Shown here: positions 3,457 to 21,742 of the stretch, piece by piece
How the letters are laid out: every line of letters begins with the position of its first letter
Position numbering within the stretch: the stretch's first letter is position 1
IMG/VR virus record: IMGVR_UViG_3300031687_000120
Coordinates: 1-21,878 of that record
Source of the DNA: a virus
DNA: 21,878 bases
Strand: one strand, 5' to 3'
Notes under the pieces: generated by a model
The model's input: only the letters and a program-made list of their open reading frames with translations
Database searches by the model: none
What the model was told of the DNA's origin: nothing
Position numbers and translations under genes: made by a program

Positions 3457-3741
3457 ATGCCAAGATTTCATAATATAAATGGACAAAACGTCCAGTTTAC
3501 AGCAGCTGAAGAAACAGCGCGTAATGCAGAAGAACTAGCTTGGGCCAACGCAGCAGATACTCGCGCAGCTGAAGCTAACAGAGAAACTCGAAATACTTTA
3601 CTTGCGGCTACTGACTGGCGATTTCGTTCAGACTTAGTCCCAAGTCAAGCTTGGAAAGACTATTCAACAGCGTTAAGGGACATTCCGTCTCACGCAAATT
3701 GGCCTAACCTTCAGGAAGCTGACTGGCCTACCATGCCATAG
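3457..3741 (+). CDS. Small tail assembly chaperone-type protein (Phage_tail_APC-like), copy 1
   Basis: This 94-residue protein has a charged N-terminal half (AAEETARNAEELAWANAADT) and the signature RNTLLAATDW near residues 47-56, then DYSTALRDIP and a C-terminal WPTMP. This matches my memory of the Phage_tail_APC family (R..RN.LL..TDW...W..YR.ALRDI....WP..P). Members usually follow tail-fibre genes and are thought to assist fibre assembly. AAAGGAGG at 3444-3451 is the strongest ribosome-binding site in the region, six bases from the ATG, and suggests high expression. Two paralogues lie downstream. Chaperone activity is inferred from the family name only. Confidence 0.8.
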   Translation: MPRFHNINGQNVQFTAAEETARNAEELAWANAADTRAAEANRETRNTLLAATDWRFRSDLVPSQAWKDYSTALRDIPSHANWPNLQEADWPTMP

Positions 3742-4891: not shown

Positions 4892-5236
4892 ATGCACTAT
4901 GCAAAAGTAATTAACGATATTGTTCAAAAAGTAATCGTAGCAGAAGCAGAATTTTTTGATAGCTTTGTAGACTCAAGTCCCGGTGCTTGGATACAAACTT
5001 CTTATAATACTTCTGGCAATGTCCATAGTCTTGGGGGAACGCCCTTAAGAAAGAACTATGCAGGGGTTGGTATGACGTATGACGCAGAAAGGGATGCTTT
5101 TATTTCTCCAAAACCTTATGCTAGTTGGACACTAGACGAAAACACTTGTTTTTGGCAATCACCTGTTTCTTATCCTACTGATGGTAATAACTACTCTTGG
5201 AAAGAAGAAACACAAGAGTGGGAATTAATAGAATGA
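4892..5236 (+). CDS. Conserved small phage protein between two adhesin genes
   Basis: This 114-residue protein begins MHYAKVINDIVQKVIVAE and contains WIQTSYNTSGNVHSLGG, LRKNYAGVGMTYD and AERDAFISPKPYASWTLDE, ending with a tryptophan-rich tail. This pattern is familiar from small conserved proteins of marine phages and cyanophages, usually near tail-fibre genes and without an assigned function. It takes the position that tail assembly chaperone-type proteins take in the other cassettes, so a fibre accessory or decoration role is possible but unproven. AAAAGGAAA precedes the ATG. Its last codons overlap the next start as ATGA at 5233-5236, implying coupled translation. Confidence 0.75.
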   Translation: MHYAKVINDIVQKVIVAEAEFFDSFVDSSPGAWIQTSYNTSGNVHSLGGTPLRKNYAGVGMTYDAERDAFISPKPYASWTLDENTCFWQSPVSYPTDGNNYSWKEETQEWELIE

Positions 5237-7337: not shown

Positions 7338-7619
7338 ATGACTAAAATATTTTACAACAGGACTACAGGCGACGGCGCAGTGTTTGATGACGCTGCCGTT
7401 GTAACTGACTGGCCTGACTTTCAAGAAACACAACCGGACATGACTCCTATGCTGGCTATATCGGCAAGAACTCAACGAGACGACCTACTAGCCGCCTCTG
7501 ATAGCATGGCACTAGCAGACCGTATTACAAGTGACTGGACTACTTACAGAGCGGCTCTGAGAGATATTCCAGCCCAAGAGGGTTTCCCCGCTAGTATAGT
7601 GTGGCCTTCTCAACCTTAA
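7338..7619 (+). CDS. Small tail assembly chaperone-type protein (Phage_tail_APC-like), copy 2
   Basis: This 93-residue protein starts MTKIFYNRTTGDGAVFDDAA. Its C-terminal half carries ARTQRDDLLAASD (about residues 43-55), DWTTYRAALRDIPAQEGFP and the final WPSQP. It is the closest of the three copies to the family pattern at its C-terminus, although the usual tryptophan after the first aspartate is missing (SDSMALAD in place of TDW). AAAGGAA lies eight bases before the ATG. It directly follows adhesin D and probably serves it, as tail assembly chaperones typically sit behind their fibre gene. Confidence 0.8.
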   Translation: MTKIFYNRTTGDGAVFDDAAVVTDWPDFQETQPDMTPMLAISARTQRDDLLAASDSMALADRITSDWTTYRAALRDIPAQEGFPASIVWPSQP

Positions 7620-10033: not shown

Positions 10034-10525
10034 ATGAAAATAGCACGATTAGATGGCTCAACAGTAGGCGAGATAGCAGATCACAAGTCTCTGTTCCCTA
10101 ACAATAGCTTCCCAAGGTCTGGACCTGACAGTGATTGGTTGGCGGCCAATAGCTGCGCTGAAGTAATTGTTTTCCAAGAGTATGACAGCGCTACACAAAA
10201 GAACGAGAGTGTAACACCTTACTTATCAGCTGGTAAAGTATATACCCGTAGAGTTACTGACATGACAGACGAAGAAGAAGCGGCGGTAGTTACTGCAGCT
10301 AATTCTGAAGTGGCTGCTCGTAACAGAGCAAAAAGAGATACTCTTTTAGCAGACTCAGACTGGGTTGTTACTAAGGCTTTAGAAGCAAGCATTGCAACTC
10401 ATGCTAGTTGGGTTACTTATCGTACGGCACTACGCAACATTACTGCTCACGCTAACTGGCCTAACTTGGCAACAGCCGACATAGAAGGCAACGGGGGAGA
10501 CTGGCCTACAAAGCCCGTACAATGA
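10034..10525 (+). CDS. Tail assembly chaperone-type protein (Phage_tail_APC-like) with N-terminal extension, copy 3
   Basis: This 163-residue protein has two parts. Residues ~1-90 (MKIARLDGSTVGEIADHKSL, later VIVFQEYDSATQKNE and SAGKVYTRRV) are unlike the two other copies. Residues ~95-160 carry NRAKRDTLLADSDWV, SWVTYRTALRNI, HANWPNL and the final WPTKP, the same family signature. It is nearly twice as long as the 93-94-residue copies. AAAGGA sits eight bases before the ATG, and the gene follows the LamG gene by two bases. The family placement is firm by eye. The N-terminal part may contact the specific partner fibre. Confidence 0.75.
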   Translation: MKIARLDGSTVGEIADHKSLFPNNSFPRSGPDSDWLAANSCAEVIVFQEYDSATQKNESVTPYLSAGKVYTRRVTDMTDEEEAAVVTAANSEVAARNRAKRDTLLADSDWVVTKALEASIATHASWVTYRTALRNITAHANWPNLATADIEGNGGDWPTKPVQ

Positions 10526-10734
10526 TCCACGTATTTGCTTTAATGTTATACATAGGAGCGGGTGAGGACAAAAAACTTATAAGCGATGATATGTACTTTC
10601 GCAAAGTTGAAAGCTGCAACTACTATGCAGAACAACTTATTAAGTCTTTTGGATCTCACCCTAACAATGACCCTAGAAGGGCTTACTGTATCCCCAAATC
10701 AGTAGATCCGGCTAAAGAACAAATCTACTACTAA
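10522..10734 (+). CDS. Small hypothetical protein before phoH
   Basis: I do not recognise a function for this 70-residue protein. It overlaps the previous stop by ATGA, so it is probably translated by coupling; there is no good ribosome-binding site of its own. The N-terminus MIHVFALMLYIGAG is hydrophobic, which might be a short membrane-inserting segment or a signal-like start, but it is short and lacks a lipobox. The rest is polar with two cysteines (C32 and C55), CNYYAEQLIKSF and a C-terminal EQIYY. The two cysteines could form a disulfide if exported. Confidence 0.6.
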   Translation: MIHVFALMLYIGAGEDKKLISDDMYFRKVESCNYYAEQLIKSFGSHPNNDPRRAYCIPKSVDPAKEQIYY

Positions 10735-10755
10735 AAATAGAGATCGCTAATGATA
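10733..10755 (+). promoter_or_regulatory. Conserved 23-base intergenic motif, copy 1 (before phoH)
   Basis: The motif reads AAAAATAG, A, GATCGCT, A, ATGATA. A second copy at 20007-20029 differs only at the two separately listed A positions (both T there). It begins in the stop codon of the previous gene and lies 34 bases before phoH. It could be a phage-specific promoter. TAATGAT is a poor -10 and no good -35 is visible, so a standard sigma-70 promoter is not obvious. GAGATC (10740-10745) and GGTCTC (10756-10761) could pair, but copy 2 does not keep this pairing. Confidence 0.55.
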
Positions 10756-10789
10756 GGTCTCCCTAGAAATACCAAATAAAGGATTCTTT

Positions 10790-11494
10790 ATGTCAAGAAG
10801 ATCAGAAAAGAAAAAGTCCCGTTATGCTGATAAGAATGAAGGTAATGTTCACGTATTACCTAGATTTCATGTTCTTCCTAAGAATGAGAAGCAAAACTAC
10901 TTGATACAAGCTATTAAGAAAAGTCCAGTTGTAGTGACCATTGGTTGCGCTGGTACTGGGAAAACTTACTGTAGTGCTGGAACAGTAGCACAACTCTTTC
11001 TGAAAGGGGGCTATCGCAAAATAGTCCTTACACGCGCTAACGTACCCACAGGTAAAAGTCTAGGACACTTCCCAGGAACTATCGCTGAGAAGATGACTCC
11101 TTGGTTACTTCCTATGTTGGAAGTTCTTAAGAAAGCCTTTGGTACGGGCAAGTATGAGTATTTAATGAGTAAAAATGACATTGAGATTCAGCCCATTGAG
11201 ACTATACGGGGGCGTTCTTACGAGAATGCTCTTGTGTTAGTTGATGAGGCTCAAAATTTAAACATGGATGAACTAAAGGCCATAAGTACACGCATCGGCG
11301 AAAATTCTAAACTAATTCTTATGGGTGATCCTGCGCAGTCAGACGTTAAGGCTGGGGCAGATCTCATGAGGTTCTCTAGGCTTATACAGTCTAACGGTAT
11401 TAACCTCCCTGTGATTGAGTTTGGTGTAGAAGACATCGTAAGAAGCGACATAGTTGCTGACTTAGTGAGGATGTTTATAGCAGAAAAAATCTAA
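10790..11494 (+). CDS. phoH: PhoH-like P-loop ATPase
   Basis: This 234-residue protein is a PhoH family member. Walker A is GCAGTGKT at residues 52-59 and Walker B is VLVDEAQN at 149-156. Typical PhoH blocks lie between and after them: IVLTRANVPTGKSLGHFPGT, ETIRGRSYENA and ILMGDPAQSD. The N-terminal ~25 residues are basic (SRRSEKKKSRY). Length is usual for phage PhoH, which lacks the extra nucleic-acid domains of some bacterial forms. It is common in marine phages. The fold is a helicase-like ATPase, but its role in infection is not settled and the name does not prove phosphate regulation. AAAGGA lies seven bases before the ATG. Copy 1 of the conserved 23-base motif lies just upstream, so phoH may open a transcription unit running into the tail-tip genes. 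Confidence 0.95.
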   Translation: MSRRSEKKKSRYADKNEGNVHVLPRFHVLPKNEKQNYLIQAIKKSPVVVTIGCAGTGKTYCSAGTVAQLFLKGGYRKIVLTRANVPTGKSLGHFPGTIAEKMTPWLLPMLEVLKKAFGTGKYEYLMSKNDIEIQPIETIRGRSYENALVLVDEAQNLNMDELKAISTRIGENSKLILMGDPAQSDVKAGADLMRFSRLIQSNGINLPVIEFGVEDIVRSDIVADLVRMFIAEKI

Positions 11495-11509
11495 TTAAGG
11501 AACTAATCA

Positions 11510-12172
11510 ATGAAAACTTATTACTATAACGGAGCACAAATCCTTGCTCCTTTCACAATTACATCAAACGAACCTATGTTCGATATGACTACTATCTCTT
11601 TAAAAACACAGAGAGCCTCTCAAGGTGCTCAACGTTGGGAGTTATCCTTTGACATTATTGCTGAAAATAGTAATCAGGCAGATCTATTTGTTAGTTCCTT
11701 TAAGGACATTGAAGGCGCAAATACCATGATTATGCCGCAGTTGACTAGCTCAACTAAACCTCGTTACAACTCTTCGGGCGAAGATACTCTTTATAAAACA
11801 GGAGAAGTTGGCGCAAATTTAAATGAAATAACTATGCCAATATCTGTCGCTGCTAGCACAGGGGTAACTCAAGTGTATATCGGTGCAGGTACGGCAGTGT
11901 TAACAGGGTTAATGCCTAAAGGTACTTTTATAAAATTTACTAATAGCGATAAACTTTATGTTACAACTTCAGACGCAAACTTTGCAAACTCAGGTTCAGC
12001 TATTGATATTTATCCAAGATTAAAGAAGACTCTAAGTACCTCTGATAATATTGTATTAAAAGATCTTGTTCAATTCTCTTACTACAGAGATATTAGCAAT
12101 CAACAAGGTATAACTTTTACAGACGGAATTTTATCAAATATTGGCCAGATTAATTTAATTGAGGCGGTATAA
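11510..12172 (+). CDS. Minor tail protein at the start of the tail-tip module
   Basis: This 220-residue protein contains TISLKTQRASQGAQRWELSF (about residues 28-47), followed by a polar stretch and PQLTSSTKPRY. The 'SLKT.R...GAQRWE' pattern is one I associate with minor or distal tail proteins upstream of tail-tip genes in marine phages. The central part (ITMPISVAASTGVTQVYIGA, PKGTFIKFTN, KLYVTTSD) is beta-rich and ends QINLIEAV. It begins the block that leads through the next gene to the gpJ-like hub, the position of GTA-type DUF2460/DUF2163 or lambda gpM/gpL-type genes. AAGGAA precedes the ATG, and its stop overlaps the next start as TAATG. Tail tip is likely; the exact homologue is unsure. 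Confidence 0.65.
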   Translation: MKTYYYNGAQILAPFTITSNEPMFDMTTISLKTQRASQGAQRWELSFDIIAENSNQADLFVSSFKDIEGANTMIMPQLTSSTKPRYNSSGEDTLYKTGEVGANLNEITMPISVAASTGVTQVYIGAGTAVLTGLMPKGTFIKFTNSDKLYVTTSDANFANSGSAIDIYPRLKKTLSTSDNIVLKDLVQFSYYRDISNQQGITFTDGILSNIGQINLIEAV

Positions 12173-12777
12173 TGGCTAGGTCTTTTTCAACTAACTTTAC
12201 AACTGCTCTAAACAGTGGGTCTGTTACATATTTTTTCTTAATTGAAATTGACTTAGAAAGAGTTTCTGCAAACAACACAAACAGAGTTACTTATTATTAT
12301 ACTAGCTTTAACAGGGATATTAGCTGGAATAGTCAAACTTGGGTTGGCGATGGGGGAGTCTTCGAAATAGATTCTCCAAGATTCTCTTCTATAATTGATA
12401 GAGAAGCCTACATTATTACTCTAACTGATGCTGCCAACAGTCTCTCTGACACTTTTAAACAAGGCGTAATTGGCAATAATATAAAGGTTCGTCTGGGTTT
12501 GTTGAACAGTAGTGAACAACCTATGCTTGGCGTTGATAGTAATAGCGTTAGTGATATTGTTTTTCTTTACTCAGGATTTATTGACTCCCCAACAATAGCA
12601 GTTAATTGGGATACTAAGATTGCTAAAATAGAAGGGACTTCTCCTATGGCTGACTTAGATCAGATAAACTTAACTATGATTTCTAAAGATGGAATGGATC
12701 AAAAGAATTCTACAGACACCTCTTTTGACAACATTTACGATGATAATGAAACTGCTATTTCATGGGGGAAAATTTAA
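12172..12777 (+). CDS. Minor tail protein upstream of the gpJ-like hub (gpL/DUF2163-like position)
   Basis: This 201-residue protein has FFLIEIDLERV, YYYTSFNRDISWNSQTWVGD and FLYSGFIDSPTIAVNWDTKI, and ends TSFDNIYDDNETAISWGKI. A 'W.g..W.gDGg.f.i.sp' body and an ending of the type 'D.SFD.i......WG' are typical of phage proteins directly before the central tail hub. Overlaps with both neighbours (TAATG before at 12172 and after at 12777) indicate coupled translation of the tail-tip proteins. It probably sits at the tail tip between the tube end and the hub. The family assignment is by pattern and position. Confidence 0.65.
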   Translation: MARSFSTNFTTALNSGSVTYFFLIEIDLERVSANNTNRVTYYYTSFNRDISWNSQTWVGDGGVFEIDSPRFSSIIDREAYIITLTDAANSLSDTFKQGVIGNNIKVRLGLLNSSEQPMLGVDSNSVSDIVFLYSGFIDSPTIAVNWDTKIAKIEGTSPMADLDQINLTMISKDGMDQKNSTDTSFDNIYDDNETAISWGKI

Positions 12778-15548
12778 TGCCTTTTGGAATTGGTAATATT
12801 CTTAGCCTTGGCCTCACCCTTGCTTCGGCTGCATATCAACAAAAACTTGCGAGAGAAGCAGAGCGGCGGCGTCAAGCTGCCCTTGATAAGGCTCGTGGAC
12901 AAAAGTTTAATGTAACTTCAGAAGCAGCCCCGTTACCTGTTATATACGGTAAGCAACTTGCTGCAGGAGTAAAAACAGGACACAAAGTTAAAAACGGCTA
13001 TTCAGCTTCTAGTCCAGTAAATTATGACAATGCTTTTGAAAAGGACTTTAGTGACACTAGTGTTAGCGGTTCTAAAAAAGAATTTTTAGGAGTTCAAACA
13101 GCACTCTGTCACGGTGGAATTGAAGGTGTTCAACACGTTTTAGTAGATGGGCTTGACTATCGTGGTCTAACAAGTGAAATGAAAAACAGCAACTCTAAAT
13201 ATAATCATAGATTCCATATACATAACTCTGGAGGAGGAGATAGCGCCTCTAGTAGTATGGGGTTTCTTTCTACTAATACTTTTACCGACATAGCTTGGGT
13301 TTCTTCTTTTTTTAAACTTAACAGAGAAACCCCTCAGTATAGTGGTAGCCCTGAAGTTGAGTATATTTTAAAGGGTAAAAAAGTAAGGAAAATTAATAGC
13401 TCGAATTACACTTTAAATACTACTTATGAATATTCAAATAACCCTGCTTATTGTTTGTTAGACTACCTTCTAAACACTAACTATGGCAGAGGTCTTCCAG
13501 CTGATAAGGTAGACTTAGTCTCTTTTTATAACTCTGCAGTTATTTGTGATACAGTAAAACTCACTAATGCAACTCTCGGAGGGAGTGTTAACGGAACTAA
13601 ACCTATTTTTAGTTATTCAAATAACGATGCCTTTCCAGGGGTTAATGACTTTTCTCAGAGTGACTTTTCAACTACTGATTTGTCTAATTCAACTTATTTA
13701 TATTTTGCAGAAAATACTTCTCAGCTTTATTCTTTAGCCGTAGCTAACAATGGTACTCCTACTTACACTGAAATTAACACTCCTAACACGGACACTATTC
13801 GTCTTTATGAATGTAATATGACTCTGGACACTTCCGAAACTATTAGAGATAACATTGAGAGAATTCTGTCTACTATGGGAATGACAAGTCTTGTATGGAC
13901 ACCTGATGGCAAATACAAGCTATCTTTAGAATACCCTGTAGATGAAGCCGCTGTATCAGCATTAGTTAACAGTAATCATTCTTTTGGAGACGACGATATT
14001 GTTCGAGAAGAAGTGACTATTGTATGGCCTACTGCTCAAGAAAGATTCACTCAAGCTACCGTTCAATTTCCTAATGAATCCGAAAACTTTGATATGGATT
14101 CTATAACTTGGCCGCCAACATCATCAGTGGCTAACACTCCTTACGCTACCTTTTTAGCTGAAGATAATAATAATCCTTTGACTAAGAGTTTTTCTCCAGA
14201 CGGTATTACCAACAAATATCATGCACAGGCTTACGCTGAACAGCAAGTAAGAAAATCAAGAGGCATCTTTACAGTTGATATTACACTTACTAGAAAAGCA
14301 ATGACAGTAGAGCCAGGAGACATTATTTATATTAAGTCTGATGCTGCAGGTTTAATTCAGAACAGAGGTCAAGCTAATGAAACAGGATATCATTTTAAAG
14401 TTGAATCAATTAGAATTAATGATGATTTTTCAGTAAAAGTTAAATGCTATCATTTTCATTCAGGGTTTTTAGCTTGGAATGTACTAGACGATGTATCTTA
14501 CTCAATAATTCCTGAAATTGATTTTTCGGTAGCTCCAGTAACATCACTTTCTTTTTCATCTTCTTCAAATCAACTTTATGGCAGCTCTGCAGGGAAGTTA
14601 ACTTGGACAGCCTCGGATGATATCTCTGCAACGGATTACGTTGTTGAAGCAAAACTTTCTACGGAAAATGATAATCAGTACCAACAAGTAGGCACAACAG
14701 TGAATACAACGTTTGACATTCTTGGAATGAAAACGGGAACTTATATCTTTTCGGTAAGAGCGCGGTCTATAAATAATAGGCTTTCTAACAGGGTGACTTT
14801 GCAGCAGACCTTGCAGTTACTAACTAATGGGACTGTTGAAATAATCTATGCAAACACCGCTAATGCGGCTACTAACACTCAATCTTATACTTTTTCTACT
14901 CAAGAGTTTGTAGCGTACTACTCTCACACGGGTGCTCAACCGACTCTACCCCTCAGAGCGGGAGTAGCCTTCCATAAATTTGTAGGCTCAGACGGGACTT
15001 CAGGAAACAGTACTTTCCCTATTTATGCAGATAGTACTTCAGGAGGGAATCAGTCTTTTAGCCCTATAGGAAAAACCCATGTGAATTTTTTCTCTTCGGT
15101 TTCTTCCCCTAGCCTTCCAGTAAATGGGTTAACCTTTGTACCACTAGGCACTGCTGGGACAAGGGGTCCAGGGTGGTGGAGATATATTGATACAACAAAC
15201 GCTTCTAGTTATTATACTTCAGGGGCAAGTCTTCAACAACAGACAAGACTTAATGCAGCGTTTACAACAGCAACTTCTCTCACGGTAGTAGACTCAGATA
15301 GGTTTATAATCAAGTGTACAGATATTGCAATTGCTTATATTTACAATGGTTCTTCTTGGGTTACTCAAGCAGATTTTATTGATGGAGACTTAATGGTTGC
15401 TGGGACAGTTACTTCGGATAAACTCAATGTAACTAACCTCTCTGCCGTAACTGCTAATATGGGAACTTTAACAGCAGGAAAGCTTGAAAGTGCTGACGGT
15501 AAGTTTAAAATAGATTTAACAAATAAAGAAATATTAATAGTGGTATAA
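12777..15548 (+). CDS. gpJ-like tail hub / host-specificity protein
   Basis: I place the start at ATG 12777. GGGGGAA at 12764-12770 is well spaced for it and TAATG couples it to the previous gene, whereas the in-frame ATG at 12762 has no such site. The 923-residue protein shows the tail tip protein J pattern. There is an N-terminal helix rich in basic residues (YQQKLAREAERRRQ), then APLPVIYGKQLAAG (~51-64), ALCHGGIEGVQHVLVDG (~109-125) and NPAYCLLDYLLNTNYGRG (~222-239). Next come ETIRDNIERILSTMGM and VWTPDGKYKLSLEYP. A fibronectin-type-III-like domain lies at ~580-680, and a C-terminal segment with repeated 'TSDKLNVTNLSAVTANMGTL' and 'TAGKLESADGKF' pattern. This protein forms the tail-tip hub that triggers DNA ejection. 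The separate fibres and adhesins upstream imply that it is not the only receptor-binding part. Confidence 0.88.
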   Translation: MPFGIGNILSLGLTLASAAYQQKLAREAERRRQAALDKARGQKFNVTSEAAPLPVIYGKQLAAGVKTGHKVKNGYSASSPVNYDNAFEKDFSDTSVSGSKKEFLGVQTALCHGGIEGVQHVLVDGLDYRGLTSEMKNSNSKYNHRFHIHNSGGGDSASSSMGFLSTNTFTDIAWVSSFFKLNRETPQYSGSPEVEYILKGKKVRKINSSNYTLNTTYEYSNNPAYCLLDYLLNTNYGRGLPADKVDLVSFYNSAVICDTVKLTNATLGGSVNGTKPIFSYSNNDAFPGVNDFSQSDFSTTDLSNSTYLYFAENTSQLYSLAVANNGTPTYTEINTPNTDTIRLYECNMTLDTSETIRDNIERILSTMGMTSLVWTPDGKYKLSLEYPVDEAAVSALVNSNHSFGDDDIVREEVTIVWPTAQERFTQATVQFPNESENFDMDSITWPPTSSVANTPYATFLAEDNNNPLTKSFSPDGITNKYHAQAYAEQQVRKSRGIFTVDITLTRKAMTVEPGDIIYIKSDAAGLIQNRGQANETGYHFKVESIRINDDFSVKVKCYHFHSGFLAWNVLDDVSYSIIPEIDFSVAPVTSLSFSSSSNQLYGSSAGKLTWTASDDISATDYVVEAKLSTENDNQYQQVGTTVNTTFDILGMKTGTYIFSVRARSINNRLSNRVTLQQTLQLLTNGTVEIIYANTANAATNTQSYTFSTQEFVAYYSHTGAQPTLPLRAGVAFHKFVGSDGTSGNSTFPIYADSTSGGNQSFSPIGKTHVNFFSSVSSPSLPVNGLTFVPLGTAGTRGPGWWRYIDTTNASSYYTSGASLQQQTRLNAAFTTATSLTVVDSDRFIIKCTDIAIAYIYNGSSWVTQADFIDGDLMVAGTVTSDKLNVTNLSAVTANMGTLTAGKLESADGKFKIDLTNKEILIVV

Positions 15549-15552
15549 ACAA

Positions 15553-16203
15553 ATGAAAATAATGGTATCAGAATTATCTTTACTAATGACTGCCTCTGAT
15601 TTTTGGAGGAACACTTCAAAAGACAATGTGTATTACTCTACTGTAACAAAGGGAAAGCTATCCTTTTCTGAGTCTTCTGAAAACTCTTATGCAAGTATAA
15701 AAACTTGCGAAGACCTTTCTTTAGTCGAAGATGAAGACGTAGATAACCCTGTTTTTTATGTGGAGTGGCCTAGTGGAAAACATGCTTTAATAGTCCCTGA
15801 ATCTTGGAGGAGTATAGCTCCTTTAGAGGGAAGACCTTATAACCCTAGATCTTGGGACTGTTATAAGCTTGCTCAAGATTACTACAAGGCTAACTACAAC
15901 TTTTCGCCGCCGCCGATGACTGCTGAGTTACAAGAACTCAAAAATGGATGGTCCGCAACAAGTTTTAATGGTAATGAAGAACTAGATAATAACTGGGAAA
16001 TGACAGTTAATCCTCAAAAAGGAGATGCTATTTTCTTTGGGGTTGGAAAGTATTCTTTTGAAAATAAAAATCCAAATCACTGCGGAATATACCTCGGTGA
16101 TAGTAAGTTTTTACACCATTACTCAGGGAGAATTAGTTGTATAGAAGACCTAGAAGACTGGTCTCACTGGATACTCAACTACGTTAGGAGCAAACATGTC
16201 TAA
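15553..16203 (+). CDS. gpK-like tail-tip protein with NlpC/P60 peptidase domain
   Basis: This 216-residue protein carries the NlpC/P60 pattern of tail assembly protein K. GRPYNPRSWDCYKLAQDYY at residues 93-111 places the catalytic cysteine at C103. QKGDAIFFGVGK follows, and PNHCGIYLGDSKFLHHYSGR supplies the candidate histidine H176. Such domains cleave peptidoglycan peptides, helping the tail cross the cell wall. The first ~85 residues are unlike the JAMM domain found in lambda gpK and may be a shortened remnant or an unrelated head. It lies after the hub gene, whereas lambda and GTA-type clusters place the peptidase before it. The ribosome-binding site is weak, and an ATG at 15562 is an alternative start. 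The last bases overlap the next gene by eight. Confidence 0.8.
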   Translation: MKIMVSELSLLMTASDFWRNTSKDNVYYSTVTKGKLSFSESSENSYASIKTCEDLSLVEDEDVDNPVFYVEWPSGKHALIVPESWRSIAPLEGRPYNPRSWDCYKLAQDYYKANYNFSPPPMTAELQELKNGWSATSFNGNEELDNNWEMTVNPQKGDAIFFGVGKYSFENKNPNHCGIYLGDSKFLHHYSGRISCIEDLEDWSHWILNYVRSKHV

Positions 16204-17386
16204 AACTTTCTGGTCTGGCCCTGTAACAAAGGTAGTAGCGTCTGGCACTCTTGCCGCATCTAACACCCAGTTTGTAGGGCCGCTTCCTGTGTTCCCCGAA
16301 GATGCTTGGACAGTAGTATTAAACGGACAAACATTAGTAAGCTCTTCAGACAACCCCGCTGCATATCATTATTTTATGTTGTTATATAATCCAACAGACA
16401 TGTATATTATTTGGAACACTACTGTTAACGTAGGGGATGTTCTTTCTGCGTCTATTGAAAAAGTTAGTTGTGTTATTTATGAGGGAGACGAAAGTTATAT
16501 TGATAATTATAAGCTTGCAGCAGATGATCCTGTAGGGACTTCAAATGCTCTTACTTTTTCACAAAAATTAAATTCTCTTTATTTTCACTCTGATTTAAAT
16601 TACTTAGGTAGCACTCAAACAGCAACTACAAAGATTGTTTCTCACCCTGTTAGAACTGCAGCTTCCGCTTCTCAGAGCAAACACTCAGGGGCTTCTTATG
16701 CTATATTGAAGGGTACTCAAGAATATACTTTAATGAGTCATTCAGGCACTCTTGACACCCCTTTTATTGTTCAAGAAAATAGCAATCAACTTATGCAGGG
16801 GCTTCCTATTCAAAGTTCAGGAGCAAGCGTTAGAGCAGTAGGGGCTTACAATGACGGTAGCTCTATTAAAATCAGAGAAACTTATGTTACTCACTCAGAC
16901 TCTCTTCCCGCAGTAAACAAAACCTACACTGTTTATATGTTTGACATTGTTAGCAATAGTAATGTTTCTGCGGATAACACCTTAAAAATAACTTCCACAA
17001 ACTTTACAGCAGGTGCAGGGAGATTAGACACAGACAAAAAGTATATAAGGCGAGAAGACACTAACCCTGACTTTTACTTTAGTAAGGCAAAAACAGCAGA
17101 TGTTCAAAGAGGAAAACTAAAGGTTGTTGCTCCAAGCGGGGAAGTAATCTATAACCCCACTATGCCAAGCCCTCAGTGGGGATATCGGCATAATAACGCT
17201 CAGGCAGGGGGAACTAACTATGTCTATCATTTTCCCGACACCAATCCTTATAACACTACTCTGATATCTTCAGTATTTCCAACTAATCCTCTTTACGAAG
17301 GCTCTTTTGGAGGTTCAACTTCGGCGCAAGGTACTACTGTAGCAAACTGGGCAAGTAGCGGAAACAGTGTTGGGATAAAAATATGA
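16196..17386 (+). CDS. Hypothetical tail-associated structural protein 1
   Basis: I do not recognise the family of this 396-residue protein. It is rich in serine, threonine and asparagine with alternating hydrophobic residues, as in virion beta proteins. Visible segments are WTVVLNGQTLVSSSDNPAAY and IIWNTTVNVGDVLSASIEKV (about residues 38-87; the latter recalls 'VNG..L' fibre repeats), IRETYVTHSDSLPAVNKTYT, and a C-terminal LKVVAPSGEVIYNPTMPSPQ. No signal peptide or membrane segment is visible. It overlaps the peptidase gene by eight bases and the next gene by ATGA, so it belongs to the tail-tip operon. A tail-tip decoration, short fibre or hub extension is plausible. Confidence 0.65.
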   Translation: MSKTFWSGPVTKVVASGTLAASNTQFVGPLPVFPEDAWTVVLNGQTLVSSSDNPAAYHYFMLLYNPTDMYIIWNTTVNVGDVLSASIEKVSCVIYEGDESYIDNYKLAADDPVGTSNALTFSQKLNSLYFHSDLNYLGSTQTATTKIVSHPVRTAASASQSKHSGASYAILKGTQEYTLMSHSGTLDTPFIVQENSNQLMQGLPIQSSGASVRAVGAYNDGSSIKIRETYVTHSDSLPAVNKTYTVYMFDIVSNSNVSADNTLKITSTNFTAGAGRLDTDKKYIRREDTNPDFYFSKAKTADVQRGKLKVVAPSGEVIYNPTMPSPQWGYRHNNAQAGGTNYVYHFPDTNPYNTTLISSVFPTNPLYEGSFGGSTSAQGTTVANWASSGNSVGIKI

Positions 17387-18216
17387 GTTTTGAGCTAAGC
17401 AACAATAACCTAGTTATAAAAAATTCTAGTAATGATGTAATTTTTAACACTGACACCCCTATGCCACATATTATATCACACGGCACTGTAGGGTTAAGTG
17501 ATGCTACTGCCTATGGGCATGAGTTTAATATTCCTAATAGTCATATTTACTTTACAGGCATACCTTCTGGAACAACTACTTTGGTAAACTGCCCCTTTAC
17601 AGATTTTAATGGGTATCATCCTAACAACTCTGTAAGTGTTGAGGGAACTTCTTGGTCTAGAGCTGCTCTCCCCCATGAGACTACCTCTGTCAAGTTTATT
17701 GCAGCGATTGATCAAGTAGGTGTAGACGCTGACTTTGTTCTTATAAACGGCGGTTTGAGAAGACTGAGTGATTACAACGGTCAACTTGTTCAGTACGGAA
17801 TCGCTGATAGACCTTTTCAGTCTGACTATGGGGTTATAAATACTACTCTACCCCCTCAAGTAGTTACAGTAGCAAATAATACAGTTAGCACTGCCTACTC
17901 AGGCGCGGTTAACCTGTCAGGAACTACTCTTCTCGAAACAGCTTTTACTGCTAACGGAGAACAGTGGTTTACAAGAACGCTTACTCTTCGATATCAAGCG
18001 GCTACAGCTAATCAGGGCGGTTCAATTTATGCGGACTGGACTCACTCTTCAAATGGTTGGGAGTCTGATCAACAAGAAGTTTCTTTTGGGACTTGTGAAA
18101 ACAGAACCAATACTTCGAGTACTCCAGCAGCAGATGTTTTTGTTACTTCTTCTGAAAGTTTTTTTAGCAAGTGGGGCGCGTATTTTACAGTTTATTTTGG
18201 GAAATTTACAATATGA
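17383..18216 (+). CDS. Hypothetical tail-associated structural protein 2
   Basis: This 277-residue protein begins NNNLVIKNSSNDVIFNTDTP followed by MPHIIS, which resembles the C-terminal LKVVAPSGEVIYNPTMPSPQ of the preceding protein: both have hydrophobic-x-S-x-x-V-I-aromatic-N-x-x-x-P-x-P. Similar 'f.v.n..G..v.ds' openings occur in phage tail proteins. The remainder is beta-rich (SVKFIAAIDQVGVDADFVLI, TRTLTLRYQAATANQGGSIY) with no catalytic motif or membrane segment. It is coupled by ATGA to both neighbours. The two proteins may share a domain placed at opposite ends, or may interact. A structural role is inferred from composition and neighbours. Confidence 0.65.
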   Translation: MSFELSNNNLVIKNSSNDVIFNTDTPMPHIISHGTVGLSDATAYGHEFNIPNSHIYFTGIPSGTTTLVNCPFTDFNGYHPNNSVSVEGTSWSRAALPHETTSVKFIAAIDQVGVDADFVLINGGLRRLSDYNGQLVQYGIADRPFQSDYGVINTTLPPQVVTVANNTVSTAYSGAVNLSGTTLLETAFTANGEQWFTRTLTLRYQAATANQGGSIYADWTHSSNGWESDQQEVSFGTCENRTNTSSTPAADVFVTSSESFFSKWGAYFTVYFGKFTI

Positions 18217-18428
18217 CACAAGAAATTAATTATGATTGCGAAATAACATCTAAAATGTTTAAACCTATCGGTAACATAGTTTTAGTAAGGGCTTCGATAT
18301 GGCAAGAATTGTCAACTTTTAAAAAACTTATAGACACAATAGAGCTTACAATCGAAGGTGGCATGGCGATGGAAGATCATCAATTAAAAAATGAAATTTT
18401 AGACGTTTATAGAGCATCTTTAACTTAA
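18213..18428 (+). CDS. Small hypothetical protein (71 aa) between tail and lysis genes
   Basis: The start at ATG 18213 is chosen because it overlaps the previous stop as ATGA; an in-frame ATG at 18171 would overlap that gene by 46 bases. The 71-residue product (MTQEINYDCEITSKMFKPIG, VLVRASIWQELSTFKKLIDT) is soluble and mixed in charge, with a probable helix in the second half (EDHQLKNEILDVYRAS). I do not recognise it. It could be a small virion or lysis-timing protein, but nothing in the sequence decides. Confidence 0.6.
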   Translation: MTQEINYDCEITSKMFKPIGNIVLVRASIWQELSTFKKLIDTIELTIEGGMAMEDHQLKNEILDVYRASLT

Positions 18429-18443
18429 ACAAAAGGAAACCTT

Positions 18444-18650
18444 ATGGCAGTAACTATGGAAAGACTTCTTCAGTGGAAGATCTTGCCACGACTAATGATG
18501 TTGGCAATGACTTTTATGTACGTAACAGTGCTTTATTGGTTTATGGATCTTCCTCCTGAAGCCATGACCTCACAAGCAACCGCTTTAACTGCAACCGTAA
18601 CGGGCGCTATGACAGGTGCTTTTGCTGTATGGTTAGGACATGAAACATGA
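18444..18650 (+). CDS. Small two-TM membrane protein, holin candidate
   Basis: This 68-residue protein has a short charged N-terminus (MERLLQWK), a first hydrophobic segment at about 13-33 (LPRLMMLAMTFMYVTVLYWF), a short loop with DLPPEAM, and a second, weaker segment at about 44-63 (ATALTATVTGAMTGAFAVWL), ending GHET. Small two-TM proteins of this form directly before a holin and endolysin are common in marine phages. It could be a holin, antiholin or membrane accessory. AAAAGGAAA precedes the ATG, and the stop overlaps the next start (ATGA), tying it to the three-TM holin in expression. Confidence 0.7.
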   Translation: MAVTMERLLQWKILPRLMMLAMTFMYVTVLYWFMDLPPEAMTSQATALTATVTGAMTGAFAVWLGHET

Positions 18651-19000
18651 TAGGCGCACTAATAGGTAGCCTCACAGGTCTAGCTACAAGCATTATTGAC
18701 GGAAAGACTCAGATTAAACTTACCGAAGCTGAAATAAAAAAGAAGCAGCTTACCGGAGAGCTTGATTGGGATCTTGAGGCTATGAGGGCTACAGAAAACA
18801 GCTGGAAAGACGAATGGATTACACTCTTGTTTAGTATTCCGCTTATCCTAGCTTTTTGTGGTGAATGGGGGAATGACATTGTAGCAGCAGGGTTTGCCTC
18901 ACTAGAGATAATGCCTCAGTGGTATCAGATTGCCTTAGGTGGTATAGTGAGTGCATCTATTGGTATGCGTTCGGTAAGTAAGTTTTTTGGAAAAAAGTAG
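18647..19000 (+). CDS. Holin of the three-TM GTA type
   Basis: This 117-residue protein has a hydrophobic N-terminus (IGALIGSLTGLATSII), then a charged helix (LTEAEIKKKQLTGELDWDLE). Next comes the family signature around ENSWKDEWITLLFSIPLILA, followed by EIMPQWYQIALGGIVSASIG and a basic C-terminus (KFFGKK). This fits the GTA_holin_3TM family. Such holins permeabilise the inner membrane at the end of infection so that the endolysin reaches the peptidoglycan. The endolysin gene follows after eight bases. The start overlaps the previous stop (ATGA). Confidence 0.82.
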   Translation: MIGALIGSLTGLATSIIDGKTQIKLTEAEIKKKQLTGELDWDLEAMRATENSWKDEWITLLFSIPLILAFCGEWGNDIVAAGFASLEIMPQWYQIALGGIVSASIGMRSVSKFFGKK

Positions 19001-19008
19001 GATAGAGA

Positions 19009-19521
19009 ATGAAAGATAATTTTAAAGTTTGTTTAGACATGTTGTTATCACACGAAGGGGGTTTTGTAAATCATCCCAAAGATCCCGGAGGTATGACAAA
19101 CTTAGGGGTGACTAAGGCCGTATATGATTCACATATTGGCAAGAGCAGCTCAAAGGCTCAAATGATGGCGCTGACATACGAAGATGTTGCACCAATTTAC
19201 AAAAAGAATTACTGGGACAAAGCTAAATGTGATGACCTCCCAAGCGGCCTTGATTGGGCTGTTTTTGACTGGGGTGTAAACTCTGGAATGTCGCGACCAG
19301 TAAAAGCAATGCAAAAAAGTATCAAGGCTACTGTTGACGGTGGTGTTGGACCTCAAACTCTTAAGGCAGTTAATGCTGCTGAACCCAAAGAAGTAATTAA
19401 AAGCATTAACAAGCAAAGACAAAAATTTTATGAAAGTTTAAAGACTTTTGAAACTTTTGGAAAAGGTTGGACACGTCGAAATAAAGAAACCCTTGAGCAA
19501 GCACTCAAAATGTTAGAGTAG
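19009..19521 (+). CDS. Endolysin, glycoside hydrolase 108 type (muramidase)
   Basis: This 170-residue protein is a GH108 lysozyme-like endolysin. The motif HEGGFVNHPKDPGGMTNLGV at residues 15-34 includes the catalytic glutamate E16. AIYKKNYWD-like spacing is present as APIYKKNYWDKAKCDDLPSG, and LDWAVFDWGVNSGM completes the catalytic domain near residue 95. The C-terminal half (MQKSIKATVDGGVGPQTLKA, INKQRQKFYESLKTFETFGK, GWTRRN) matches the PG_binding_3 domain normally fused to GH108. Length is normal for the family. There is no signal peptide, so it depends on a holin, and a candidate lies immediately upstream. Its action is cleavage of the peptidoglycan glycan strand. Confidence 0.93.
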   Translation: MKDNFKVCLDMLLSHEGGFVNHPKDPGGMTNLGVTKAVYDSHIGKSSSKAQMMALTYEDVAPIYKKNYWDKAKCDDLPSGLDWAVFDWGVNSGMSRPVKAMQKSIKATVDGGVGPQTLKAVNAAEPKEVIKSINKQRQKFYESLKTFETFGKGWTRRNKETLEQALKMLE

Positions 19522-19540
19522 AAAGTAAAAGAGGCCCACC

Positions 19541-19993
19541 ATGCTAGTGGAACTTGCTGCAGCCAACGCTGCTTTTGCTATTATTAAAAAGACTGTACAA
19601 AATACAGGAGACTTGACAAGAGTAGCAAGTCAAATGGCAGCGTTTGTTGGCGCAAAAACAGAATTAGAAGATAAAGTCAAAAAGAAGAAAAACAGCCTAT
19701 TCAGTGATCCCGATGCGGTTAATGACATGGAAGAGTTTCTTGCATTAGAGTCTATTCGTAAAAATGAAGAAGAACTTAAAGAATTTATGATATGGTCAGG
19801 CCGACCGGGATTGTGGAATGACTGGGTAAAGTTTCAAGCAACTTCAAGAAAGAAGAGGGTTGCTGCAGAAGCGCATAGGCAAAAAGTATTAGCTACAATA
19901 ATGTTTAGGGTTGGCATTGGGCTAATAGTAATCACTGCGGTAGGCGGTATAATTGGCCTTGTTTTCTTTGCAAGTTTTCTTTCAGACTTATAA
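19541..19993 (+). CDS. C-terminally membrane-anchored protein after the endolysin
   Basis: This 150-residue protein has an N-terminal helix (LVELAAANAAFAIIKKTVQN), a charged middle that looks helical or coiled (ELEDKVKKKKN, LALESIRKNEEELKEFMIWS), then GRPGLWNDWVKFQATSRKKR, and one strong C-terminal membrane segment at about 123-147 (VGIGLIVITAVGGIIGLVFF). The IWSGRPGLWNDWVKFQ block is one I recall from marine phage genomes without a function. Its position behind the endolysin invites a spanin guess, but spanins carry N-terminal membrane or lipid anchors, so that assignment is weak. A membrane-associated lysis accessory is possible. AGAGG lies before the ATG. Confidence 0.65.
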   Translation: MLVELAAANAAFAIIKKTVQNTGDLTRVASQMAAFVGAKTELEDKVKKKKNSLFSDPDAVNDMEEFLALESIRKNEEELKEFMIWSGRPGLWNDWVKFQATSRKKRVAAEAHRQKVLATIMFRVGIGLIVITAVGGIIGLVFFASFLSDL

Positions 19994-20006
19994 AAAGAAT
20001 ATTCAC

Positions 20007-20029
20007 AAAAATAGTGATCGCTTATGATA
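20007..20029 (+). promoter_or_regulatory. Conserved 23-base intergenic motif, copy 2 (before the portal)
   Basis: This copy reads AAAAATAG, T, GATCGCT, T, ATGATA, matching copy 1 (10733-10755) at 21 of 23 positions. It starts 14 bases after the previous stop. TTCACA (20002-20007) and TATGAT (20023-20028) resemble sigma-70 boxes but are only 15 bases apart, and the -35-like box has no equivalent at copy 1. A phage-specific promoter or regulator site is the preferred reading. Confidence 0.55.
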
Positions 20030-20039
20030 TAAGTTTACT

Positions 20040-20080
20040 GAGGAACAGCTTATGATATCCCTACAAGCTGACCGTTCCTC
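20040..20080 (+). promoter_or_regulatory. Bulged hairpin in the portal leader
   Basis: GAGGAAC (20040-20046) pairs with GTTCCTC (20074-20080), and AGCTT (20047-20051) pairs with AAGCT (20065-20069), leaving a four-base bulge on the 3' side and a 13-base loop. The left arm and loop contain GCTTATGATAT, an exact copy of 11 bases of the motif at 20020-20030. It could be a structured 5' leader, a processing site or an operator. Confidence 0.5.
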
Positions 20081-20084
20081 TTTC

Positions 20085-20116
20085 GGGGTACCTAGTTAAT
20101 TCTGGGTACTCCTTTT
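20085..20116 (+). terminator. Rho-independent-type terminator between the lysis module and portal
   Basis: GGGGTACCTAG (20085-20095) pairs with CTGGGTACTCC (20102-20112) over 11 pairs, two of them G-U, around the loop TTAATT; TTTT follows at 20113-20116. It would end transcripts from the lysis genes. The T run is short, so read-through is possible. Confidence 0.65.
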
Positions 20117-20128
20117 AACTCAGGAAAA

Positions 20129-20167
20129 ATGTCTGCTGCTTATTGGGCAAACAAAGCTAAATGGTAA
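20129..20167 (+). CDS. 12-codon micro-ORF in the portal leader
   Basis: ATG 20129 to TAA 20165-20167 encodes MSAAYWANKAKW. CAGGAAA at 20121-20127 could serve as a ribosome-binding site, though it is closer to the ATG than usual. The ORF ends nine bases before the portal ATG, so ribosomes finishing it could reach the portal start. It may be a leader peptide coupling translation to the portal, or a chance ORF. Nothing in the peptide suggests a function. Confidence 0.35.
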   Translation: MSAAYWANKAKW

Positions 20168-20176
20168 GGAATCCCT

Positions 20177-21742
20177 ATGGCACAGAAAATTACTACTACT
20201 AAAACAGTTAAGAAGTCCGTAGCAGACCCTAGTGATGCTTATCATTCTCTTACTCCTTTATGGAAAAAAGCAAGAGCGATTCTTCAAGGGGAGGCTAATG
20301 TAAAGGCGCACGACACTACTCTGGCAACTGACTACTCTAATCTTTTGTTGCCATTTTCTCCTTCTATGACTCAAGCTCAGTACAATTTTTACAAAGCTGA
20401 AGCAGAACTCTCAGGGTTAACCGCGCAGTACTGTAAAGTATTAATTAGTTCCTTGTTACGCAAAAAATCACAACTAACCCTTCCCGAAGGAATTCCAGAA
20501 GAGGCTTTAGATTGGATTGAAACAAATTTTACTTTGGATGGTCGTTCTCTCTTTAATTTCCTTGACTCCGCTCTATGGGAGGAACTTCAGACCTCGCGCT
20601 GTTGGGTGTCAGTTGATTACCCGAAGTTTACCGAAGAACAACAAGAAGCTTTAACCCCTGAAGAGCGTAACATGATTGCGCCTTATCCAGTAATTATTAA
20701 GGCTGAAAACGTCATTAACTACCAAGTAGATGTTCATCCAATTACTCGACAAAGAACTCTTACTCGACTAGTACTGAGGTACTTAACTGAAGAGTTTGAC
20801 GAAGAAAACCCTTGGCATCCTAACTACGTAGATACTGTCTGTGATCACTACTTAGATGAAGGCGGCTATCTTGTTATGGATTACTACCGCCAAAAAGATA
20901 CTTACGCAGAACTTAAAGTTCTTAACGGCGAAGTAACACAAGACTATAAAGATATCCGTACAGAAACACAATTTGAAAAGTACGACACAATAACTCCTCA
21001 AATGTTTGGTGAGCGTCTTAAACGAATTCCTGCTTGGCCTCTCAACGGTCATATTGAACCTGTTGAACCAGTGCTCATGCCTCTTATTGATCGTGAGGTT
21101 TCTCTGTACAACAAGGTATCACGTAGGAACCACCTACTATACGGGGCTGCGACCTATACCCCTATTGTCTCTTCTGACATGACAGACGAAGAGTTTGAAG
21201 AGTTGGTGTCTGCAGGGCTAGGTACGTGGTTACGGGTACGTAAAGACGAGTCTGTTAGTGTTCTTGAAACACCTACAAGCGCCTTAAATGACATGGATAC
21301 TGCTATTACAAAGACCGTAGAAGAAATGGCTAAGATGGGTATCCGAATGCTTTCTCCTGAAACAGCACAGTCAGGTATTGCTTTAGAAATCCGAAACGCT
21401 TCTCAAACAGCACAGCTAGGTACTCTTAATGCCAAAGTATCTCATATTATGCGGGAAGTAATTTCTTTTATGCTTAACTGGAAGTACAACACACAGTACA
21501 CAGGCAACGATGTTGAGTTTACTCTCTCAGCAGACTTTGCACCAGTTGTTGGTGGTGAAGGGCCAATGCGTTTGGTTACTGAATGGTATCAGTCAGGTCT
21601 TATTCCACGGGATACTTTCGTATCGGTTGCTAAGTACAATGACTTTATTCCTTCTGATTACGATGATGAAGCAGCTATTGCAGCTATTCAGACAGACCCC
21701 CTTACTAATCAGCCGCCAGACGATAATATGGAAATGGAATAA
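20177..21742 (+). CDS. Portal protein, DUF4055 type
   Basis: This 521-residue protein matches the DUF4055 portal pattern. PLWKKARAILQGEANVKAHD lies near residues 28-47, followed by NFYKAEAELSGLTAQYCKVL and the adjacent LLRKKSQLTLPEGI. SLWEE-like spacing is present as LDSALWEELQTSRCWVSVDY. LMPLIDREVSLYNKVSRRNH and GAATYTPIV lie in the middle. A helical stretch around 'SGIALEIRNASQTAQLGTLN' is the typical 'S..A..l...' portal helix, and the tail is acidic (PPDDNMEME). Portals form the dodecameric ring through which DNA is packaged and to which the tail joins. AAGGA lies seven bases before the ATG. Copy 2 of the conserved motif, a hairpin, a terminator and a micro-ORF precede it. It is the first head gene of the window. 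Confidence 0.88.
   Translation: MAQKITTTKTVKKSVADPSDAYHSLTPLWKKARAILQGEANVKAHDTTLATDYSNLLLPFSPSMTQAQYNFYKAEAELSGLTAQYCKVLISSLLRKKSQLTLPEGIPEEALDWIETNFTLDGRSLFNFLDSALWEELQTSRCWVSVDYPKFTEEQQEALTPEERNMIAPYPVIIKAENVINYQVDVHPITRQRTLTRLVLRYLTEEFDEENPWHPNYVDTVCDHYLDEGGYLVMDYYRQKDTYAELKVLNGEVTQDYKDIRTETQFEKYDTITPQMFGERLKRIPAWPLNGHIEPVEPVLMPLIDREVSLYNKVSRRNHLLYGAATYTPIVSSDMTDEEFEELVSAGLGTWLRVRKDESVSVLETPTSALNDMDTAITKTVEEMAKMGIRMLSPETAQSGIALEIRNASQTAQLGTLNAKVSHIMREVISFMLNWKYNTQYTGNDVEFTLSADFAPVVGGEGPMRLVTEWYQSGLIPRDTFVSVAKYNDFIPSDYDDEAAIAAIQTDPLTNQPPDDNMEME

Follow-up and report, generated by a model that had tools for sequence, protein, structure and literature searches.

What does a 23-base word do at the head of two gene blocks in a marine phage? 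The question is raised by a virus record of 21,878 bases (IMG/VR IMGVR_UViG_3300031687_000120; this whole stretch is called the window here), a marine contig akin to the roseophages DSS3_VP1 and DSS3_PM1 and carrying tail-fibre genes, phoH, tail genes, an endolysin gene and a portal gene. Two + strand copies of the word, AAAAATAGWGATCGCTWATGATA, stand in it, and our answer – argued from sequence – is that they are very probably promoters for a T7-like single-subunit RNA polymerase (RNAP) that the phage itself encodes. What the sequence evidence itself establishes is the copies, their placement, the linked RNAP gene and the covariation between the core of the promoter and the specificity loop of the polymerase. 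The two copies and the first gene after each are given below, with promoter numbering taken from a gapless alignment to the T7 promoter.

10733–10755, + strand: putative promoter copy 1, before phoH; AATAG at 10736–10740 (−16 to −12), core AGATCGC at 10741–10747 (−11 to −5), TAAT at 10748–10751 (−4 to −1), predicted +1 G at 10752
10790–11494, + strand: PhoH-like gene (phrog_170, E 6e-73), the first gene after copy 1, 38 nt from the predicted +1
20007–20029, + strand: putative promoter copy 2, before the portal gene; AATAG at 20010–20014, core TGATCGC at 20015–20021, TTAT at 20022–20025, predicted +1 G at 20026
20177–21742, + strand: portal protein gene (phrog_145, E 2e-53), the first gene after copy 2, 151 nt from the predicted +1

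The original prediction, made from the letters of the window, had placed both copies exactly and counted 21 of 23 bases as identical. It had also seen no third copy, and a search of the window allowing up to three mismatches indeed returned these two only, with none added at up to six; in shuffled windows (n = 100), the motif had no match at up to three mismatches, the chance expectation being none. The description of both copies as lying just after a stop codon is right for copy 2, which starts 14 nt past one, but not for copy 1 as drawn, which overlaps its TAA (10732–10734) by two bases – although the conserved stretch common to the six copies described below starts at 10736, beyond that stop. 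The count of three true intergenic gaps (approximately 143–214, 10735–10789 and 19994–20176) fits the list of open reading frames (ORFs), provided that an overlapping 85-residue ORF at 18171–18428 is accepted as a gene.

Motif copies and the linked polymerase gene

When viral contigs were scanned with the exact pattern, 32 stretches were obtained, and 63 with a shorter one. Overlapping contigs gave a composite genome of 64,918 bases (~65 kb), in which the window has an offset of 27,631: one contig (G011) extends it rightward, while another (G013) overlaps with the left end of the window and connects it to a third (G021), the three showing 99.78–99.99% identity. The composite has six good copies of the motif, at 5065, 14475, 21612, 38364 (window 10733), 47638 (window 20007) and 57797, and a weak one at 25879. 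Every one of them is on the + strand, as are 84 of the 88 ORFs; the sites at 57797 and 25879 fall within short ORFs on the opposite strand, which are probably not genuine. The modules headed by these copies comprise the block after the RNAP gene, with the DNA polymerase; the exonuclease and primase–helicase; the terminase; the tail fibres (the weak site); phoH with tail genes; the portal with a MuF–RNAP fusion and the capsid; and the tape measure. The genome-wide scan proposed in the original prediction thus yielded additional intergenic copies, on a single strand and at module boundaries, in keeping with its view that the motif marks the heads of separate gene blocks.

Among the six copies, the invariant stretch runs from −16 to +3 – the invariant columns being motif positions 4–8, 10–16 and 18–22 only – and the flanks are as unrelated as had been remarked for the first two. 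The six also lack a common inverted repeat, in agreement with the earlier statement that no hairpin is shared; an N4-type hairpin promoter was rejected as a candidate on this count. The variable bases, −11 and −3, are A/A at 5065, 38364 and 57797 and T/T at 14475, 21612 and 47638 (composite positions), a split that may be due to chance or reflect two promoter classes, since relatives show mixed forms.

The search for a phage polymerase gene elsewhere in the genome was likewise rewarded. Contig G021, which G013 connects to the window (99.78% and 99.9% identity), encodes a T7-like single-subunit RNAP of 719 residues (L255:2715-4874), which matches PF00940 (E 3.1e-80), phrog_414 (E 1.5e-126) and T7 RNAP itself (E 1.5e-54), and the motif recurs 194 nt past its stop codon. 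Among the longer contigs with a shared portal or phoH gene, nine likewise encode a T7-like RNAP.

The consensus AATAG-WGATCGC-TWAT-GA aligns without gaps to the T7 promoter, AATAC-GACTCAC-TATA-GG, whose regions are described in PMC10138996, and the alignment puts the probable +1 at the G at 10752 and 20026. The sequence features that characterise a T7-class promoter are found here: a cognate RNAP in the same phage; an AT-rich segment, a 7-bp specificity segment, a 4-bp melting segment and a purine start (the start base being predicted) at fixed spacing; several near-identical copies on the transcribed strand; and bases −11 to −7 that match the specificity loop. The motif very probably belongs to this known kind of promoter, and the natural recognition code of the family is unusually clear. 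In such a frame, AATAG (−16 to −12) would provide AT-rich recognition, WGATCGC (−11 to −5) would be read by the specificity loop and TWAT (−4 to −1) would melt, with initiation presumably at the G of GAT; the polymerase would be made early and would then transcribe the six or seven co-directional modules.

The same architecture recurs in relatives, as a de novo repeat search of their intergenic DNA revealed: most of the longer genomes have their own repeated word, built on the shared frame AATA[CG]-N7-TWAWGA around a seven-base core that is clade-specific and repeated within each genome. With the strict pattern, 47 of the 66 polymerase loci have a site 3′ of the RNAP gene, at a distance of 170–230 nt in most cases (a count that excludes the DSS3_VP1 entry, which was set by hand); if ATTA is allowed, seven more loci gain a 3′ site (~54 of 66), the chance of a match being ~0.003 per 200-nt stretch. 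Sites upstream of the portal gene occur in 48 of 74 relatives, each with its clade's core, so that the portal copy is kept in place, as the original prediction had suggested checking; sites upstream of phoH (10 of 51 relatives) are nearly confined to the window's clade. Many relatives have two promoters in tandem before the portal gene (L061, L084, L106-L112, and DSS3_VP1 at 19236 and 19325). For Kolga, a simple 12-mer count gave no promoter-like repeat.

Core bases and specificity-loop residues

The covariation of promoter and polymerase was analysed in 27 non-redundant pairs, across 550 variable RNAP columns. For base −8, the column of T7 residue 758 ranks first of 550 by adjusted mutual information (AMI 0.80; next 0.56); for base −7, the column of residue 746 does so (AMI 0.89; next 0.61); and for base −11, that of residue 748 is again first of 550. 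With one RNAP per distinct core (n = 12), 758 and 746 still rank first of 532 (permutation p 0.0015 and 0.0007, respectively); the couplings of 748 and 756 are not significant in this reduced set and rest on the larger one. The pairings are simple. Arg at 746 goes with C at −7 (16 of 16), Gln with A (4), Thr, Asp, Lys or Glu with G (6) and Val with T (1), a rule that holds in all 27 pairs; at 758, Lys goes with A at −8 (11), Arg with C (7), Glu or Asp with G (4), Gln with T (3) and Trp with G (1), which holds in 26 of 27; and Arg at 756 pairs with C at −9 (5 of 5). In a tree from which the loop was excluded, these residue and base traits underwent a minimum of 6 to 10 changes. The search patterns placed no constraint on the core, so that the covariation does not stem from the way in which sites were chosen. 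Sign tests restricted to independent pairs all pointed the same way, but the pairs were too few for significance.

In T7 RNAP, promoter contacts are made by N748 (with −10/−11), R756 (with −9) and Q758 (with −8; PMC5937735). The polymerase of the window's phage has R746 and Q758 as in T7, and its promoter likewise has C at −7 and T at −8, whereas the two phages differ at residues 748 and 756 and at bases −10 and −9. Taken from their own records, T7, T3 and K11 follow the same rules – R746 with C at −7, Q758 with T or K758 with A at −8, and D748 with CC or K748 with GG – with K11 combining K748 and GG with K758 and A at −8. SP6, with its promoter sequence as generally given, also follows the pairing of R746 with C at −7, its alignment at 758 being uncertain. 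For one further polymerase (L240), C at −8 and G at −7 were predicted before inspection, and both were found in the site 196 nt past its stop codon, ATTAC-TCCCGCC-TAAT-GA; other correct predictions weigh less, because the loops concerned are nearly identical to known ones.

Several observations count against this interpretation. Related RNAPs are not independent observations, and kinship is the main caveat on the covariation; the −8 rule is broken by one of the 27 pairs (L241, Lys with C), and a weaker prediction for L240, C at −11, failed (T was seen). No site was located near the RNAPs of L306, L309, L310, L311, L313 and L258/L263, and DSS3_VP1 has mixed cores (GGTGCGT, GTTACGT and GTGACGT), with one or two matches inside annotated genes. 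The genome, moreover, is a composite of several metagenomes, though its overlaps are 99.8–99.99% identical over 5–12 kb.

All in all, some 15 matched polymerase–promoter specificities are now catalogued from uncultured marine phages; they obey simple rules from residue to base, which hold for T7, T3 and K11 as well. The recognition code of T7-class promoters thereby becomes directly testable, and the matched pairs are candidates for mutually orthogonal polymerase–promoter systems.

A second polymerase and the rival explanations

The phage encodes another RNAP. Directly after the portal gene, to the right of the window (composite 49646–54016, equivalent to L035:11839-16206), lies the gene for a protein of 1456 residues with an N-terminal MuF head domain (PF04233, 56 bits) and a C-terminal single-subunit RNAP domain (phrog_414, E 7e-19); the catalytic motifs of the latter do not vary among 13 phages. 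The 816 C-terminal residues, modelled with AlphaFold (mean predicted local distance difference test score, pLDDT, 72.6), resemble T7 and mitochondrial RNAPs (Foldseek E ~1e-15, template-modelling score ~0.5). The DSS3_VP1 protein gp108 (L235:21242-25633; 1463 residues), annotated merely as 'head morphogenesis', is also a MuF head protein joined to a complete, divergent single-subunit RNAP. By analogy with Thermus phage P23-45 (PMC10770324) and N4, the fusion may act as a virion polymerase that transcribes early genes.

Might the motif be read by this fused polymerase, injected with the virion, rather than by the free one? Such an enzyme does exist in the very phage from which the window derives, with invariant catalytic motifs. 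Its specificity-loop region, however, is nearly constant across phages with wholly different cores, whereas the loop of the free RNAP shifts with the core; because the loop region of the fusion does not follow the promoter, we do not regard it as the reader of the motif, and this explanation is very unlikely. Nor does the host's own machinery offer a better candidate. A sigma-70-type promoter could take TATGAT as its −10 element, with an activator site upstream, and the T-type copies do contain this near-match to TATAAT; yet the A-type copies (CTAATGATA) are without it, no −35 element is conserved in the flanks of the six copies, and sigma-70-like sites occur at chance level, with none at the motif, which likewise has no −35/−10 pair at the usual spacing of 16–18 nt. 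The clade-specific cores, and their match to RNAP residues, would also be left unexplained, which makes a host promoter extremely improbable and upholds the earlier view that the motif is not a plain sigma-70 promoter.

Being a repeated, conserved, intergenic word, the motif could in principle have nothing to do with initiation and instead bind a regulator or act as a signal for replication, recombination or packaging; a GAGA..TCTC inverted repeat even spans the start in two copies. This repeat, however, is confined to some of the A-type copies, and a strict single-strand orientation at module heads, a gapless T7 promoter architecture, an RNAP gene in the neighbourhood and residue–base covariation all speak against a non-promoter function, to which we give almost no credence. 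The regulator site that the original prediction had kept as an alternative is not needed, while its first suggestion, a promoter for a phage-encoded polymerase, gains support from the further copies, the linked RNAP gene, the T7 alignment and the covariation of core and loop.

With the free RNAP as the probable reader of the motif, a wider scheme can tentatively be drawn, which we consider plausible but far from assured: a cascade of two T7-like polymerases, in which the injected MuF–RNAP would transcribe early genes, including that of the free polymerase, and the latter would read the motif through a code of nearly one residue to one base (746 and −7, 758 and −8, partly 748 and −11/−10), re-set by natural selection at least a dozen times.

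The portal leader and comparison with known systems

Between copy 2 and the portal gene, two further elements are found in the leader.

20040–20080, + strand: conserved RNA hairpin, with a lower stem ending AC/GT, an inner stem AG..CT and a 4-nt 3′ bulge GACC (covariance-model match, 32.6 bits)
20085–20112, + strand: terminator-like hairpin, 11 bp followed by TTTTAA, downstream of promoter copy 2 and ahead of the start of the portal gene

The first, directly after the portal promoter, is common to 40-odd relatives and occurs nowhere else in the 59 sources searched; its bulge, GACC in the window, is GACA in most relatives. Its stems show 54 two-sided compensatory changes against 16.8 in shuffles, although the pairing is partly there by construction, since the initial selection of sequences relied on a search for inverted repeats. 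A covariance-model search over 958 kb is more independent evidence than these counts: it gave 46 matches, all of + orientation, of which 45 fall singly in portal-containing loci and the remaining one is a second, weaker match in one such locus. No Rfam family was found for this hairpin. In T3, RNase III sites follow promoters 1.1 and 1.3, an analogy that may point to a similar role here. The terminator-like hairpin could be an attenuator, or a stop to read-through from upstream.

Elsewhere in the window, three tail-fibre-assembly-like genes (phrog_4912; 3457–3741, 7338–7619 and 10034–10525) each come soon after a fibre-like gene, these pairs forming a possible fibre diversification region. A nucleotide search of the window against phage records gave nothing beyond a short tail-fibre match to HTVC019P.

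The closest known promoters are those of T7, T3 and K11 (Autographiviridae), which share with the present ones their length and frame (AT-rich segment at −17/−13, specificity at −11/−7, melting at −4/−1 and a G start), recognition by a homologous single-subunit RNAP, the presence of a promoter immediately behind the polymerase gene and the residue–base rules linking 746 to −7, 758 to −8 and 748 to −11 and −10. What differs is the core, since WGATCGC is new and the CACTA 'core' of T7, T3, SP6 and K11 is absent; the start, which is GA(T) instead of GGG; and the phage, which is of siphovirus type, ~65 kb long and has few promoters (6–7).

DSS3_VP1 and DSS3_PM1 (Naomviridae in NCBI), from a group known for deoxyuridine (dU)-DNA, have homologous portal, PhoH, MuF–RNAP, capsid, RNAP, DNA polymerase and primase–helicase proteins, most at 43–72% identity, and share sites of the form AATAG-N7-TAAA-GA (seven and six, respectively), two of them upstream of the portal gene. 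A description of their promoters was not found in the literature searched. Unlike the window's phage, neither has a detected portal-leader hairpin. In both (RNAP of DSS3_VP1, gp080, L236:2536-4734), Trp at 758 accompanies the mixed cores, as if it relaxed the reading of base −8.

A second RNAP fused to a head protein bears on how transcription starts in siphoviruses, these roseophages included. Here the nearest parallel is P23-45, which has a virion RNAP fused to the tail tape protein and a non-virion RNAP besides (PMC10770324), and N4, with its virion RNAP, can be set beside it; N4-like virion RNAP modules have been reported from N4-like phages only (Iyer et al. 2017, PMC5512222). Like these, the present phage combines a virion-protein-fused RNAP with a free one; unlike them, both of its polymerases are T7-like single-subunit enzymes, one of them fused to a head protein of the MuF type.

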